NCBI GenBank assembly: GCA_937888715.1
Contig: CALARU010000178.1
Span: 1-64,000, forward strand
DNA: 64,000 nt
Direction of reading: 5' to 3'
Source: an uncultured Planctomycetaceae bacterium
GTDB taxonomy: Bacteria > Planctomycetota > Planctomycetia > Gemmatales > Gemmataceae
Below are positions 22,467-28,063 of the stretch, piece by piece; within the stretch, counting starts at the first letter, position 1; each line of letters opens with the position of its first letter. Below the pieces are notes generated by a model, which was not told the DNA's origin, searched no databases, and saw only the letters and a list, made by a program, of their open reading frames with translations. The position numbers were made by a program, and so were the translations under genes.

Positions 22467-24365
22467 ATGCGAAGTAAATCATATATGAAAAAGAAATCAC
22501 CCAAGGCTATTCACTGGAGCATGGCATTAGTGCTTGCTTTCCTATCAGTTCTGCCCGGATGCATGCATCAAACCCCAAGGTTAGTTGCGGAAGAAGAAAC
22601 GGAGCGCGATCGCTACGGAGTTCGCACACTGGGCGAATTTTGTACGGTCGGAAATGCAGACCCTCTTCCTTTAGGCGGGATTGGATTAGTGGTAGGGCTA
22701 GATGGAACAGGAGCTGCCCCCACCAGTGATGCCAATCGAACCATGCTGGAAGACGATCTTCGCAAACAAGGCGTTCGAAATATTAAAACAATGCTTGCAA
22801 GCAATACAGTAGCTTTGGTAATGATTTCTGCATCTATACCACCGGGAACCCGCAAGGGCGATGCCTTGGATATCGAAGTAACTCTACCGCCTCGCAGCAA
22901 GGCTACAAGCATACAAGGTGGATATCTAAAAGAGTGCATTTTATATAACTACGATTTTGCAAAGAATCTTTCTCCGACATACACGGGCCCCAAAGGCACT
23001 TTGCGAGGCCACCCTGTTGCAAGGGCTGAAGGTCCACTTTTAGTGGGATTTAGCAAGGCAGGTGAAGATGATGAAGGCAGGGTAAAATCGGGCAGAATTT
23101 GGGGAGGTGGAAAAACACAAATTGACTGGCCCTTTACTCTTATTCTGAATCAGGACCAGCAATTTGCCCGTGTATCTGGCATGATTTCTGATCAGGTAAA
23201 TGAAACTTTCCAAATCAGCAAAGGCGATCCAGGCGCTGTTATTGCCAGCACTAAAAACAATATCTCCGTTTCATTAAGGGTTCCCACACAGTACAAATTA
23301 AATCATCCACGATTTCTTAGAGTGGTAAGGCTCATCCCCACCAGAGAAAACGATGCAGGTAAAGGCGGACAAGGACGCGCCAACTACATCAAAAAACTTA
23401 ATGAAGACCTTATGGACCCTAGTCGTTGCGTAACAGCAGCACTTAGACTTGAAGCATTAGGGCAAGAAACCATTAACACTTTAAAAAATGGCCTTAAGAA
23501 CGAACATCCATTGATTCGATTTAGTTCTGCAGAATCGCTGGCTTATTTGGGCAGCCCTTCTTGTGGTGAAGAATTGGCCCGATCCGTTATTGATCAACCC
23601 ATGCTCAGGGCTTTTTCCCTTACCGCTATGGCCTCACTTGATGAAGCGATTTGCCAGGTAAAATTACGCGAAATTCTATACTCATGCTCAGATGATGAAA
23701 CCCGCTATGGGGCATTCCGTGCCTTACGGGCACTTGACGAAAAGAATGAAACAATTCAAGGCGAATTTTTGAACGAATCATTCTGGCTGCATCGGGTTTC
23801 ACCTGACACGCCTGGCATGGTTCATATCTCCACAAGTAAGCGCCCAGAGATCGTTTTGTTTGGCAAAGAACCAGCCTTTAGGCCTCCTTTCGCGTTGCTT
23901 GCAGGTGAATTCACCCTTACCTCCGGCAAAGATGATGAAAAATGTAATATCTCGCGCATTCCTCTACGGAGCGGTAAAACCATTAGGAAATCAACGGGCT
24001 TAACCGTCAGTGAGATACTTCAAACTTTGGCAGATATGGGGGCCCTTTACCCAGATGTCACTGAACTGCTTCGCCAAGCTGATACGACTCAAGCCCTTAC
24101 TTGCAGGGTAAGAAATGATGCACTTCCCCAGGCTGTTTCGGTGTATGATTTGGTTAAGGCTGGTAAAATGAAAAAAGGAAAAACCGACGAAATCGGACTT
24201 GCAATGGACGCCAGACCCGATCCTTCTGCAACCCCGAATTTATATGCCCCTGTTAAACCTTTGAGTTTTTCAAACGCTGAAGATCAGGAAGCTCTGCTAA
24301 ACAAAAAAACAACTACCAATGATAAAGCAACTGCAGAGCGATTAAAAAATGGGCAGGACAAATAA
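22467..24365 (+). CDS. FlgI-domain lipoprotein with HEAT-like repeats
   Basis: 632 residues. The N-terminus is a lipoprotein signal with lipobox LPGC (C32). Residues about 55-310 match the flagellar P-ring protein FlgI: GGIGLVVGLDGTGAAP, SNTVALVMISASIPPGTRKGDALDIEVTLPP, ATSIQGGYL. About 320-430 looks like HEAT repeats (LRLEALGQ, LKNEHPLIRFSSAESLAYLGSP, YGAFRALRALD). A further region of about 200 residues has no family I know. No flagellar gene is nearby, so a non-flagellar envelope role is likely. It sits 59 bp upstream of smc, separated by a perfect small palindrome. Confidence 0.85.
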   Translation: MRSKSYMKKKSPKAIHWSMALVLAFLSVLPGCMHQTPRLVAEEETERDRYGVRTLGEFCTVGNADPLPLGGIGLVVGLDGTGAAPTSDANRTMLEDDLRKQGVRNIKTMLASNTVALVMISASIPPGTRKGDALDIEVTLPPRSKATSIQGGYLKECILYNYDFAKNLSPTYTGPKGTLRGHPVARAEGPLLVGFSKAGEDDEGRVKSGRIWGGGKTQIDWPFTLILNQDQQFARVSGMISDQVNETFQISKGDPGAVIASTKNNISVSLRVPTQYKLNHPRFLRVVRLIPTRENDAGKGGQGRANYIKKLNEDLMDPSRCVTAALRLEALGQETINTLKNGLKNEHPLIRFSSAESLAYLGSPSCGEELARSVIDQPMLRAFSLTAMASLDEAICQVKLREILYSCSDDETRYGAFRALRALDEKNETIQGEFLNESFWLHRVSPDTPGMVHISTSKRPEIVLFGKEPAFRPPFALLAGEFTLTSGKDDEKCNISRIPLRSGKTIRKSTGLTVSEILQTLADMGALYPDVTELLRQADTTQALTCRVRNDALPQAVSVYDLVKAGKMKKGKTDEIGLAMDARPDPSATPNLYAPVKPLSFSNAEDQEALLNKKTTTNDKATAERLKNGQDK

Positions 24366-24381
24366 TTTATTACTGGGGGCG

Positions 24382-24400
24382 CCAGGGCATCTTGCCCTGG
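24382..24400. repeat. CCAGGGCA palindrome between FlgI-like gene and smc
   Basis: CCAGGGCA (24382-24389) and TGCCCTGG (24393-24400) form a perfect 8 bp stem with a TCT loop. It resembles the hairpins at 291-309 in size and style. No T-tract follows. It could attenuate read-through into smc or be another copy of a dispersed hairpin family. Confidence 0.6.
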
Positions 24401-24424
24401 GCTATACCTTAAACGGAATTCTGC

Positions 24425-27400
24425 ATGCTAAAAAGTTTGGAATTAATCGGCTTCAAATCCTTTGCCGATAAAACAGACTTTAATTTCCCGCTTGGCATCA
24501 CTGCCATTGTTGGGCCCAATGGTTCGGGCAAAAGCAATATTGTCGATGCGATCCGCTGGGTACTAGGCGAACAAAGCGCCCGCAGCCTTCGCGGTGGCGA
24601 GATGACTGATGTTATCTTCAACGGTTCTGCATCGCGAAAAGGCAATGGCCTTGCTGAAGTTTCTCTCCTCTTTGACAACACAAAAAAAATATTCCAAACA
24701 GAAAGTGCCGAAGTCCAAGTAACTCGCAGAGTTTACAGAAATGGCGATAGTGAATACCTGATTAACCGCAAAACATGCAGGCTCAAAGATATAAAAGATT
24801 TATTCATGGGTAGCGGGGCTGGTTCAGATGCTTACTGTATTATCGAACAGGGCAAAGTTGACGGTCTTTTGCAATCTTCCCCTAAAGACCGAAGAATCAT
24901 ATTTGATGAAGCTGCAGGCATCAGCCGTTTTAAAGTAAAAAAACTTGAATCGCTTCGAAGGTTGGAACGAGTTGATCAAAATGTTGAACGCCTCAAGGAT
25001 ATTTTGGAAGAAGTAGAAAGGCAATTAAAAACAGTACGGTTGCAAGCAACGAAGGCACAGAAATGGCAGGAATATTCTGAAAGGCTAAAAGAATTACGAC
25101 TAAACCTTGGGCTTCAGGAATACTCTCAGCTCACAGAAAACCTCGAATCGGAATATGCCAAGCTTTCCTCTCTTAAAAACGAATTGGAACAAGGTTTTTC
25201 GGAAACCGATGAACTCGAGAAAAAGGCTCGGGAAAAAGAATCTCTGGTAGCCCAACTGGATGAACAAATACGAAGCGGAGATCTATTGATTTCTGAAGCC
25301 AGGCAAAATATAGCTGCGGGCGACTCTTCGAAAAAAAGCGACCGCGACTCTCTCGAAAATTCTGAACGAGACCTCCTTCAGGCACGCAAATCTCTGATGG
25401 ATCACAACAAAAGATTATCCCTCTTGGAATCTCAACTTGATTCTCTCAGGCAGGAAGCCGAACTTGCAGAATCGAATTGCGCTGACTCAAAACTAATCGT
25501 CGAAACTCTCGAAAAAGCAGAAAAAGAAGCGTCCGAAGAAGATTCTGCCCTCCGTATTTCAGTCTTAAAATCTAAGGAAGAACACCTTGAGAATATGCGC
25601 ATGCTTGCGCAACTGCAAAACGCCCTTACAGGCTCCAGAGCCAAACTGGAATCTTATCATCGGGAAGCAGAAAGGCTTCGGCAACGTAACGAAAACACCG
25701 TAGGAAGCCTTGCAGTTCTAGACGCAGAACTTGGTGAATTGACAATCGCTGACGAAATTTTACAAATAAGGTTGGCAGCATCAAAGACAACACTTCTTGA
25801 TTTGGGAAAAGAAAAAGAAGCATTGGAGTTGGCACGAGACCAATTCGCCAAAGAAGTTTCGGAATTTCAGGCGAATCGAAGTGGCACCGTCAGCCGCCTT
25901 GAAGTTCTTGAAGGATTAGAAAAAAGTTTGGAAGGCTTTGGCGTTGGGCTTAAAGAAATTCTTGAACTTAGCAAAGACCCATCTTCACTTTTATGGAACA
26001 CCATTCTGGGCGTTGTTGCTGATTTCCTCGAAGTATCAACGGAATTTGCAGTGCTCATCGATCTTGCTCTTGGTGAAAAATCACAACGCATTCTTGTGCA
26101 GGATCAAGAATCTCTGATCAAAGCCCTGGCATTGAACTCAGAGGCTTTTTCAAGCAGGATTTCTTTCCAAGGTTTTTTACAAAACAATATTCAAGTTACT
26201 AATTCCTCATCTGAAACATCGATTCTAGTAGAGAATCAACCCGATATCGTTGGTTGGGCCCATGAGTTTGTTAAATGTAACAATCCAGATTTCCCGAATC
26301 TGCCTCTATGGCTTTTGGGAAAAACACTGATTGTTAAATCCTTGGATTTTGCAAGAACGCTTTCCGCATCTCATCCTTCGATTAGATTTTTAACCCTTTT
26401 TGGCGAAATCCTCGAACCTGATGGCACCCTAACCATGGGAACCCATCATGCGGAAACAGGCCTTCTTTCCCGTAAAGCGGAACTAAGAGAATTAAAAAAC
26501 ACTCTTATTCAAATTGAAGATTCCATTGTTTTGGCTCAATCCAGTTTGGATGAAACAAAAAGCGCAATCTCACTTGCAGATATTCGAATTGAAAATCAGA
26601 GACGCGATATTGATATCCTTTCGGAACAGTTGAGCGATCTTAGGGCCAGAATCGAACGACAAAAACAGCGCAAGGACGGAATGGATGAAGAATTAAAAGT
26701 CAGTGGCAACGAACTGAGGAACCTTGATGATGACACAGAAAAAGAAACCAAGGAACTGGAAGCTTTTAAAAAGCAGGCTGAAGAACTTGAAGTAGTTTGC
26801 CTAAAGATGGAAGAACTCGTAAAGGTTGGGGAAGAAAGACTACGGGACATCGAACTCCAAAGACGGGCGAGAACCGAAAAAACCACTGCAGCAAGAGTTG
26901 CTTTTGCCCAAGCCGAAGAACGAGCTGAAGCTTTTAAAACCAGATTCAATTCTGCAAACGACGAGCAAACAGACAGAAAAACTGAACAAAACCGTACCCT
27001 TACACAAATTCTAGAAATTAAATCACGATCAGACACTCTGAATCTTTCAATCCTCAATGTTACCTCACAACTTGCAATATGGTTTCTGAAAAAAGATCAA
27101 GCCGAAGAAAAGGCCCGATTTCTTTTATTGGAAAAAGCCAAAGCAGTTAAAGAAAAAGAAACATTTGCATCGAAGGCTTATTCCGACAGATCAGCGTGGA
27201 GAAATAAACAAGAGTTGGTGCATGGTCGCGAATTGGCAGTCAACGACCTCCAAATCCGACGCGACTCTTTATGTAGTCGAATGAAAGATGATTACGAAAT
27301 TAATCTTGACGAACTTTATTTGCAAAGGCAGGTCCCAGCAGAAGGCACTGACCAAATTAATTCAATGCCTCCAATAGAAACGACTGTAATTGCTGATGAA

Positions 27401-28063
27401 ATCACAGAACTCCGCAATAAGATTCATAGACTAGGCAATGTTAATATCGAATCGCTCGAAGAATTGACAAACTTGGAATTCAGACATTCAAGCCTTAAAA
27501 TACAATATGATGACCTTGTTTCAGGAAAAAAAGCCCTCGAAGAGATTATCAGTAAAATCAATGCAGATAGCAGATCACTGTTCATCGAAACCTTCCAGAA
27601 TGTAAGGATTCACTTCCAAGATTTATTCCGCAAACTATTCGGTGGCGGTATGGCTGATGTAATACTTGAAGATGAACAGGATGTTTTGGAATGCGGTATT
27701 GAGATTAAAGCAAAGCCACCTGGGAAAGAATTACGCAGCATCTCTTTGATGAGTGGTGGGGAAAAAACCATGACTGCGGTAGCATTACTTCTGGCAATTT
27801 TCCGTAACAAGCCAAGCCCTTTTTGCCTACTCGATGAAGTTGACGCTGCACTTGATGAGGCCAATGTAAATCGATTTACTAATGTATTGCGCGATTTCAT
27901 GGATAAGAGCCAGTTTATCCTTATTACCCATTCCAAACGAACGATGGCGTGTGCTGATGTTCTTTATGGAATTACGATGCAGGAATCGGGCATATCAAGA
28001 AGAATGGCAATCCGATTTCAAGATTGGCCTGCTGACGAGAAAAAAGACGAGCCTTCAGCTTAA
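24425..28063 (+). CDS. smc: Chromosome segregation SMC protein
   Basis: 1212 residues, normal for bacterial SMC. Walker A GPNGSGKS (30-37), then the conserved VDAIRWVLGEQSARSLRG and the Q-loop-adjacent region. Coiled coil runs from about 170 to 490. A hinge-like domain lies around 500-640 (GFGVGLKEIL ... VVADFLEVSTEFAVLIDLALG), with a second coiled coil to about 1000. The C-terminal head has the signature LMSGGEKTMTAVALLLAIF and Walker B PFCLLDEVDAALDE. It condenses and segregates DNA with ScpA and ScpB, neither of which is in this window. The gene follows the FlgI-like gene closely. Confidence 0.96.
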   Translation: MLKSLELIGFKSFADKTDFNFPLGITAIVGPNGSGKSNIVDAIRWVLGEQSARSLRGGEMTDVIFNGSASRKGNGLAEVSLLFDNTKKIFQTESAEVQVTRRVYRNGDSEYLINRKTCRLKDIKDLFMGSGAGSDAYCIIEQGKVDGLLQSSPKDRRIIFDEAAGISRFKVKKLESLRRLERVDQNVERLKDILEEVERQLKTVRLQATKAQKWQEYSERLKELRLNLGLQEYSQLTENLESEYAKLSSLKNELEQGFSETDELEKKAREKESLVAQLDEQIRSGDLLISEARQNIAAGDSSKKSDRDSLENSERDLLQARKSLMDHNKRLSLLESQLDSLRQEAELAESNCADSKLIVETLEKAEKEASEEDSALRISVLKSKEEHLENMRMLAQLQNALTGSRAKLESYHREAERLRQRNENTVGSLAVLDAELGELTIADEILQIRLAASKTTLLDLGKEKEALELARDQFAKEVSEFQANRSGTVSRLEVLEGLEKSLEGFGVGLKEILELSKDPSSLLWNTILGVVADFLEVSTEFAVLIDLALGEKSQRILVQDQESLIKALALNSEAFSSRISFQGFLQNNIQVTNSSSETSILVENQPDIVGWAHEFVKCNNPDFPNLPLWLLGKTLIVKSLDFARTLSASHPSIRFLTLFGEILEPDGTLTMGTHHAETGLLSRKAELRELKNTLIQIEDSIVLAQSSLDETKSAISLADIRIENQRRDIDILSEQLSDLRARIERQKQRKDGMDEELKVSGNELRNLDDDTEKETKELEAFKKQAEELEVVCLKMEELVKVGEERLRDIELQRRARTEKTTAARVAFAQAEERAEAFKTRFNSANDEQTDRKTEQNRTLTQILEIKSRSDTLNLSILNVTSQLAIWFLKKDQAEEKARFLLLEKAKAVKEKETFASKAYSDRSAWRNKQELVHGRELAVNDLQIRRDSLCSRMKDDYEINLDELYLQRQVPAEGTDQINSMPPIETTVIADEITELRNKIHRLGNVNIESLEELTNLEFRHSSLKIQYDDLVSGKKALEEIISKINADSRSLFIETFQNVRIHFQDLFRKLFGGGMADVILEDEQDVLECGIEIKAKPPGKELRSISLMSGGEKTMTAVALLLAIFRNKPSPFCLLDEVDAALDEANVNRFTNVLRDFMDKSQFILITHSKRTMACADVLYGITMQESGISRRMAIRFQDWPADEKKDEPSA

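Follow-up and report, generated by a model that had tools for sequence, protein, structure and literature searches.

A FlgI homologue with an inserted HEAT-repeat domain, usually encoded upstream of smc, in two classes of planctomycetes

The P-ring and other described relatives

P-ring proteins are the bearings of the flagellum, which the FlgI ring surrounds, and a true P-ring is made of 26 subunits (PDB 7CLR and 7BGL). FlgI is normally exported by a plain Sec signal and carries no added domains; FlgA serves as the P-ring chaperone. Lipoproteins of the Pal/OmpA type are peptidoglycan-anchoring proteins of the outer membrane. The FlgI-like gene described here lies in a window of 64,000 nucleotides, the whole stretch of DNA that was analysed, from contig CALARU010000178.1 of an uncultured Planctomycetaceae bacterium. 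Its product, called the long form below, is like FlgI (PF02119) in the order of the outer-ring (OR), upper inner-ring (IRU) and lower inner-ring (IRL) domains, with significant sequence, profile and structure matches. Unlike FlgI, it possesses a HEAT insert, a lipobox and a polar FlgH pocket, and has no flagellar partners. The helical repeat fold of the insert recalls the HEAT-repeat solenoids (PF13646) and the designed alphaRep proteins, but here some 130 residues of repeats are embedded in a different fold, and the protein that carries them is predicted to be a periplasmic lipoprotein. With the Pal/OmpA type the long form shares a lipid anchor and a domain which, in FlgI, is akin to OmpA-type peptidoglycan-binding domains (accessible text of PMC8298488), whereas the Pfam scan of the window protein gave no OmpA-family match.

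In the open-access literature searched, neither a FlgI-HEAT lipoprotein nor a flgI-like/smc gene pair was found described. Such a protein is not described in the accessible portions of PMC5287468, PMC7175336 and PMC1586193, and the main text of an essential-gene study of Planctopirus limnophila contains no flagellar, FlgI or SMC terms (PMC10632474).

A HEAT solenoid inside the FlgI fold

The long form is encoded by a 632-aa open reading frame on the forward strand, at positions 22467–24365. Against five of six congeners its dN/dS was 0.04–0.08 (the sixth, with saturated dS, was left out of this range), which shows the gene to be real and under purifying selection. The FlgI family PF02119 was matched with an E-value of 1.5e-19 and 70.5 bits, for a cut-off of 25.3, over residues 62–290, which correspond to positions 9–223 of the 343 in the profile. 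The NCBIfam FlgI models reached 63.3 bits, far below their 300-bit cut-off. The first 96 bases (22467–22562) encode a type II (lipoprotein) signal peptide, with the lipobox LPGC at residues 29–32 ending at Cys32. A lipobox-like motif was present in 103 of the 115 family ORFs when a relaxed motif was used (82 with a strict one) and was missing in 12. About a dozen members showed lipoprotein signals of the twin-arginine (Tat) type (the motif was counted 15 times, a few of them loose), at loci L064, L068, L070, L102, L108, L110–L113, L120 and L195. The signals of these members suggest export in folded form.

A set of 39 long forms was compared, profile to profile, with a set made of the E. coli FlgI and 22 true FlgI from planctomycetes; each hhalign E-value is that of one single pair of profiles. 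The N-terminal part (residues ~53–295, positions 22623–23351) aligned to true FlgI with an E-value of 1.3e-30 and covers the OR and IRU domains. The alignment ended near residue 248 of the E. coli precursor, a position at which the OR domain ends according to the domain limits of the Salmonella FlgI structure (accessible text of PMC8298488). The HEAT-repeat solenoid follows (residues ~296–426, positions 23352–23744), recognised by a profile match together with a predicted helical solenoid. Taken alone, the window member falls below the Pfam cut-off for HEAT_2 (residues 325–366, E-value 2e-4), and both FlgI and HEAT_2 were matched at E ≤ 0.01 in all 31 aligned long-form members. The region beyond the repeats (residues ~427–563, positions 23745–24155) aligned to the IRL domain with a score of 44.1 and an E-value of 1.8e-6, compared with 14.8 for the reversed profile and 19.1 for the best of 60 column shuffles. 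In the long form of genome G052, a second FlgI profile match was visible at 233–343, in the same frame and below the family cut-off. The remaining C-terminal tail (24156–24362) is variable, with the highest entropy and a pLDDT mostly below 70, and is probably disordered.

The AlphaFold2 monomer model, built from 68 sequences, had a pLDDT of 87.9 and a pTM of 0.86. When the whole model was compared to the PDB with Foldseek, the top four hits were P-ring chains (E-values of 1.7e-13 to 7.2e-13). These four alignments ran over 511–520 columns, spanning the insert, for targets of 287–306 residues, as fits an insertion. VIA-align superposed model residues 22–263, the first two domains, on P-ring chains with Z-scores of 18.4 and 18.2. 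The C-terminal domain folded alone found no match in the PDB (best Foldseek E-value 0.45, best Z 5.2), and FlgI was not among the hits listed.

All three FlgI domains are thus present in the order seen in FlgI, and the long form is a full homologue of FlgI in which a HEAT solenoid interrupts the fold where OR meets IRL. The first-pass annotation, made from the letters of the window, had correctly read the lipobox ending at residue 32, the FlgI-like stretch and the HEAT-like repeats. It had described the repeats as fused to FlgI; a terminal fusion was rejected, since the C-terminal domain of FlgI lies after the repeats. The last 200 or so residues, which it had left as being of unknown type, are for the most part the IRL domain of FlgI itself, followed by the low-confidence tail. 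Conservation is highest in the HEAT insert, where the mean column entropy was 1.69 bits versus 1.98, 2.10 and 2.07 bits for the FlgI segments, and this points to the binding of a conserved partner. R351, F352, E356 and Y360 are among the conserved residues of the HEAT domain.

Distribution, flagellar genes and the P-ring question

The long form was found in 58 of the 59 genomes of its own class (the source genome included), in 57 of them as an open frame. In the remaining carrier, G029 (L197), it is split over two overlapping frames by a frameshift or an assembly error. In a survey of 147 genomes of the phylum, the full-length form was present in 10/10 genomes of the own class and in 9/137 outside it; G086 and G078 held partial or divergent long forms upstream of smc. 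A second class, which is probably Phycisphaerae, carried it in 80 of 81 genomes, the only one without it being G210. There is one long form per genome. In a maximum-likelihood tree of 86 rows, all 51 long forms fell into one clade with a support of 100/100. Among the best 80 of 319 loci from a scan of named genomes, the titles were those of planctomycetes, save one “uncultured bacterium” and one “Bacteroidales”; two loci among these 80 were titled Kuenenia, apparently by mislabelling. With such counts the oddity of one genome was rejected, and the scope widened from one gene to an smc-linked family of two classes, in which the long form is nearly universal whether a flagellum is present or not. 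One genus (L033:8627–10456 and L034:9047–10876, genomes G050 and G054) also encodes another unusual FlgI-like protein, 610 aa long, which occupied a very long branch in the tree; in L033 it showed a weak ChapFlgA match, then FlgI, and no HEAT match.

The source genome is 99.6% complete and contains a single FlgI match, the long form itself. No FlhA, FlgH, FlgA, rod protein, flagellin or second FlgI was found in it, and the locus of the long form is not flagellar. A true FlgI stood beside the long form in 22 of the 59 genomes. These were exactly the genomes with FlgH, and FlhA was present in all 22. All but one of the 33 genomes lacking FlhA retained the long form. The exception, G019, had no FlgI match, and smc was also missing from its assembly, which makes a gap likelier than a true loss; the latter was rejected on this ground. 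Four genomes of family f3 (G044, G049, G053 and G057) possessed a full-length FlhA and no FlgH, rod protein or true FlgI, so that an export-gate gene is present in the absence of any recognisable flagellum. In G047 and G056 a second FlhA-like gene was short, its match being limited to the last half of the profile.

The sites of FlgI that face its partners were placed with a mature-residue offset of 19, which we take to be the right one. The E. coli letters at these sites match the residues named in the accessible text of PMC8298488, except at position 337 (G), and two cysteine positions were not used. In the FlgH-binding pocket, 23 of the 39 long forms had D or E at position M46, where 15 of 23 true FlgI had M; M104 was replaced by E in 18/39 and L117 by R or K in 19/39. 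The pocket of the long forms is without its former hydrophobicity, judging from these substitutions. Among the rod-facing residues, K95 was T in 26 and K in 8 of the 39 long forms; K63 was P or N in 22 and K in 9, and was K in just 4/23 true FlgI. The comparison with true P-ring proteins which the first-pass annotation had called for has two outcomes: the predicted fold keeps the P-ring domains, and the surface facing FlgH is changed.

The Pfam name of the protein would suit a flagellar P-ring, the rest of the flagellar genes having escaped detection. This explanation is barely conceivable, and was rejected, given the lack of FlhA, FlgH, FlgA, rod protein and flagellin in a genome of such completeness, the 22 genomes in which a true FlgI coexists with the long form, the lost FlgH pocket and the position of the gene outside any flagellar locus. 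A flagellar locus devoid of its own flgI, which would have given the gene back to the P-ring, was likewise not found in the source genome, since the flagellar genes searched for and any other FlgI were missing there. The first-pass annotation had placed the gene far from flagellar genes and had seen in it a P-ring homologue with a role other than motility; the flagellar gene search and the coexistence with true FlgI support this reading. The long form is a FlgI homologue by descent and fold, and by its partners, pocket and context it is not a P-ring protein. In planctomycetes, motility should not be deduced from a gene annotated as FlgI.

FlgA above its cut-off was not found in any genome outside the 22 with FlgH, so that any ring formed elsewhere would form without this chaperone. 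It is possible that no ring is formed at all. The long form would then be a monomeric adaptor between the outer membrane and peptidoglycan, with the P-ring fold as a binding module and the HEAT solenoid recruiting an envelope enzyme. The absence of FlgA and FlgH in the relatives without flagella and the polar FlgH-facing pocket fit this proposal, as does the likening of the FlgI OR domain to peptidoglycan-binding domains of the OmpA type in the accessible text of PMC8298488. The three ring-forming domains are nevertheless all kept across two classes, and we consider the adaptor a real but tentative possibility.

The link with smc and the proposed envelope role

The gene had been noted as lying directly upstream of smc, and indeed smc (24425–28063) starts 60 bases downstream of the long form, on the same strand. 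This adjacency was observed in both classes. In the own class, 100 distinct loci, minus 5 near a contig end and minus L033 (the other paralog), left 94 for the count; smc followed directly on the same strand in 76 of them and the link was absent in 18. In the second class smc directly followed in 35/49 loci (8/9 plus 27/40, the latter 40 being hand-picked, for the most part among the higher-scoring entries), and the link was absent in 14. The pair was broken in the four f3 genomes examined (L032, L044, L048 and L050). Where no long form had been detected in a genome, the ~1.4 kb examined upstream of smc contained none in 25 of 27 smc loci. No other real neighbour of the long form was present in more than 17 of the 100 loci; several larger neighbour clusters were, from where they lie, taken as frames that overlap smc or the long-form gene itself. 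A third neighbour common to both classes was sought and not found, leaving smc as the sole one.

Gene adjacency is no proof of shared function. The lasting link with smc suggests co-expression with a function connected to growth, segregation or division. The long form could be a part of the segregation or division machinery, namely a periplasmic scaffold that would be co-expressed with SMC and located where the cell divides. That smc is the sole neighbour found kept in both classes, and that the HEAT insert is highly conserved, would agree with such a part. We regard it as rather unlikely: SMC is cytoplasmic and the long form predicted to be periplasmic, so that any link would be indirect, and several lineages, the four f3 genomes among them, do not keep the two genes together.

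Crateriform pits are widely described in the own class. The ring-protein ancestry of the long form and its near universality in that class could designate it as the builder of the ring of these pits. In Planctopirus limnophila, pits are outer-membrane complexes touching the cytoplasmic membrane, at about 104 per cell (accessible text of PMC5394234), and the described Phycisphaerae are devoid of them (accessible portions of PMC8882080 and PMC7783415). The long form is present in nearly every genome of the second class. If this class is Phycisphaerae, as is probable, its distribution weakens a role in pits and equally a role limited to budding. The pit explanation appears very unlikely.

The long form is kept without a flagellum and usually adjoins smc, and it therefore probably has a different job in the cell envelope. 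We consider it likely that it is an ancient planctomycete paralog of FlgI recruited to a non-flagellar envelope function. From its domains, it is probably an envelope scaffold whose HEAT domain would bind a conserved partner. In the arrangement that we propose, the protein would be exported and lipidated, and would lie on the periplasmic face of the outer membrane with its OR domain touching peptidoglycan. The retained P-ring domains might pack side by side into a ring or an arc, which the predicted fold makes plausible, and the HEAT solenoid would hold one conserved partner. Co-expression with SMC would connect the whole to growth, segregation or division. The most detailed version, in which a non-flagellar, P-ring-derived ring or arc co-expressed with SMC marks or braces a site of growth, segregation or division at the outer membrane while the HEAT solenoid reaches its conserved partner, is speculative and, taken as a whole, improbable. 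To our knowledge, Planctomycetia have no FtsZ. If such a ring existed in this class, it could belong to a replacement division or budding scaffold. Two whole classes carry the long form in single copy, irrespective of motility, with a conserved domain inside its fold and a lasting genomic link with smc. It is a defined and testable candidate for an envelope structure in bacteria about whose division and outer membrane little is understood.

Between the stop codon of the flgI-like gene and the start of smc, an RNA hairpin is predicted from the fold at positions 24378–24403 of the forward strand, with an 8-bp core stem and the loop UCU. It was kept in five of seven near relatives, two of them with compensatory changes, and no T-run follows it. 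A scan for promoters and terminators gave matches no commoner than in shuffled sequences. The hairpin may act on the expression of smc. In 16–17 of the 100 loci, for instance in L148 and L067, inspection by eye showed a small rnpA-like frame and a dnaJ-like gene upstream of the long form.
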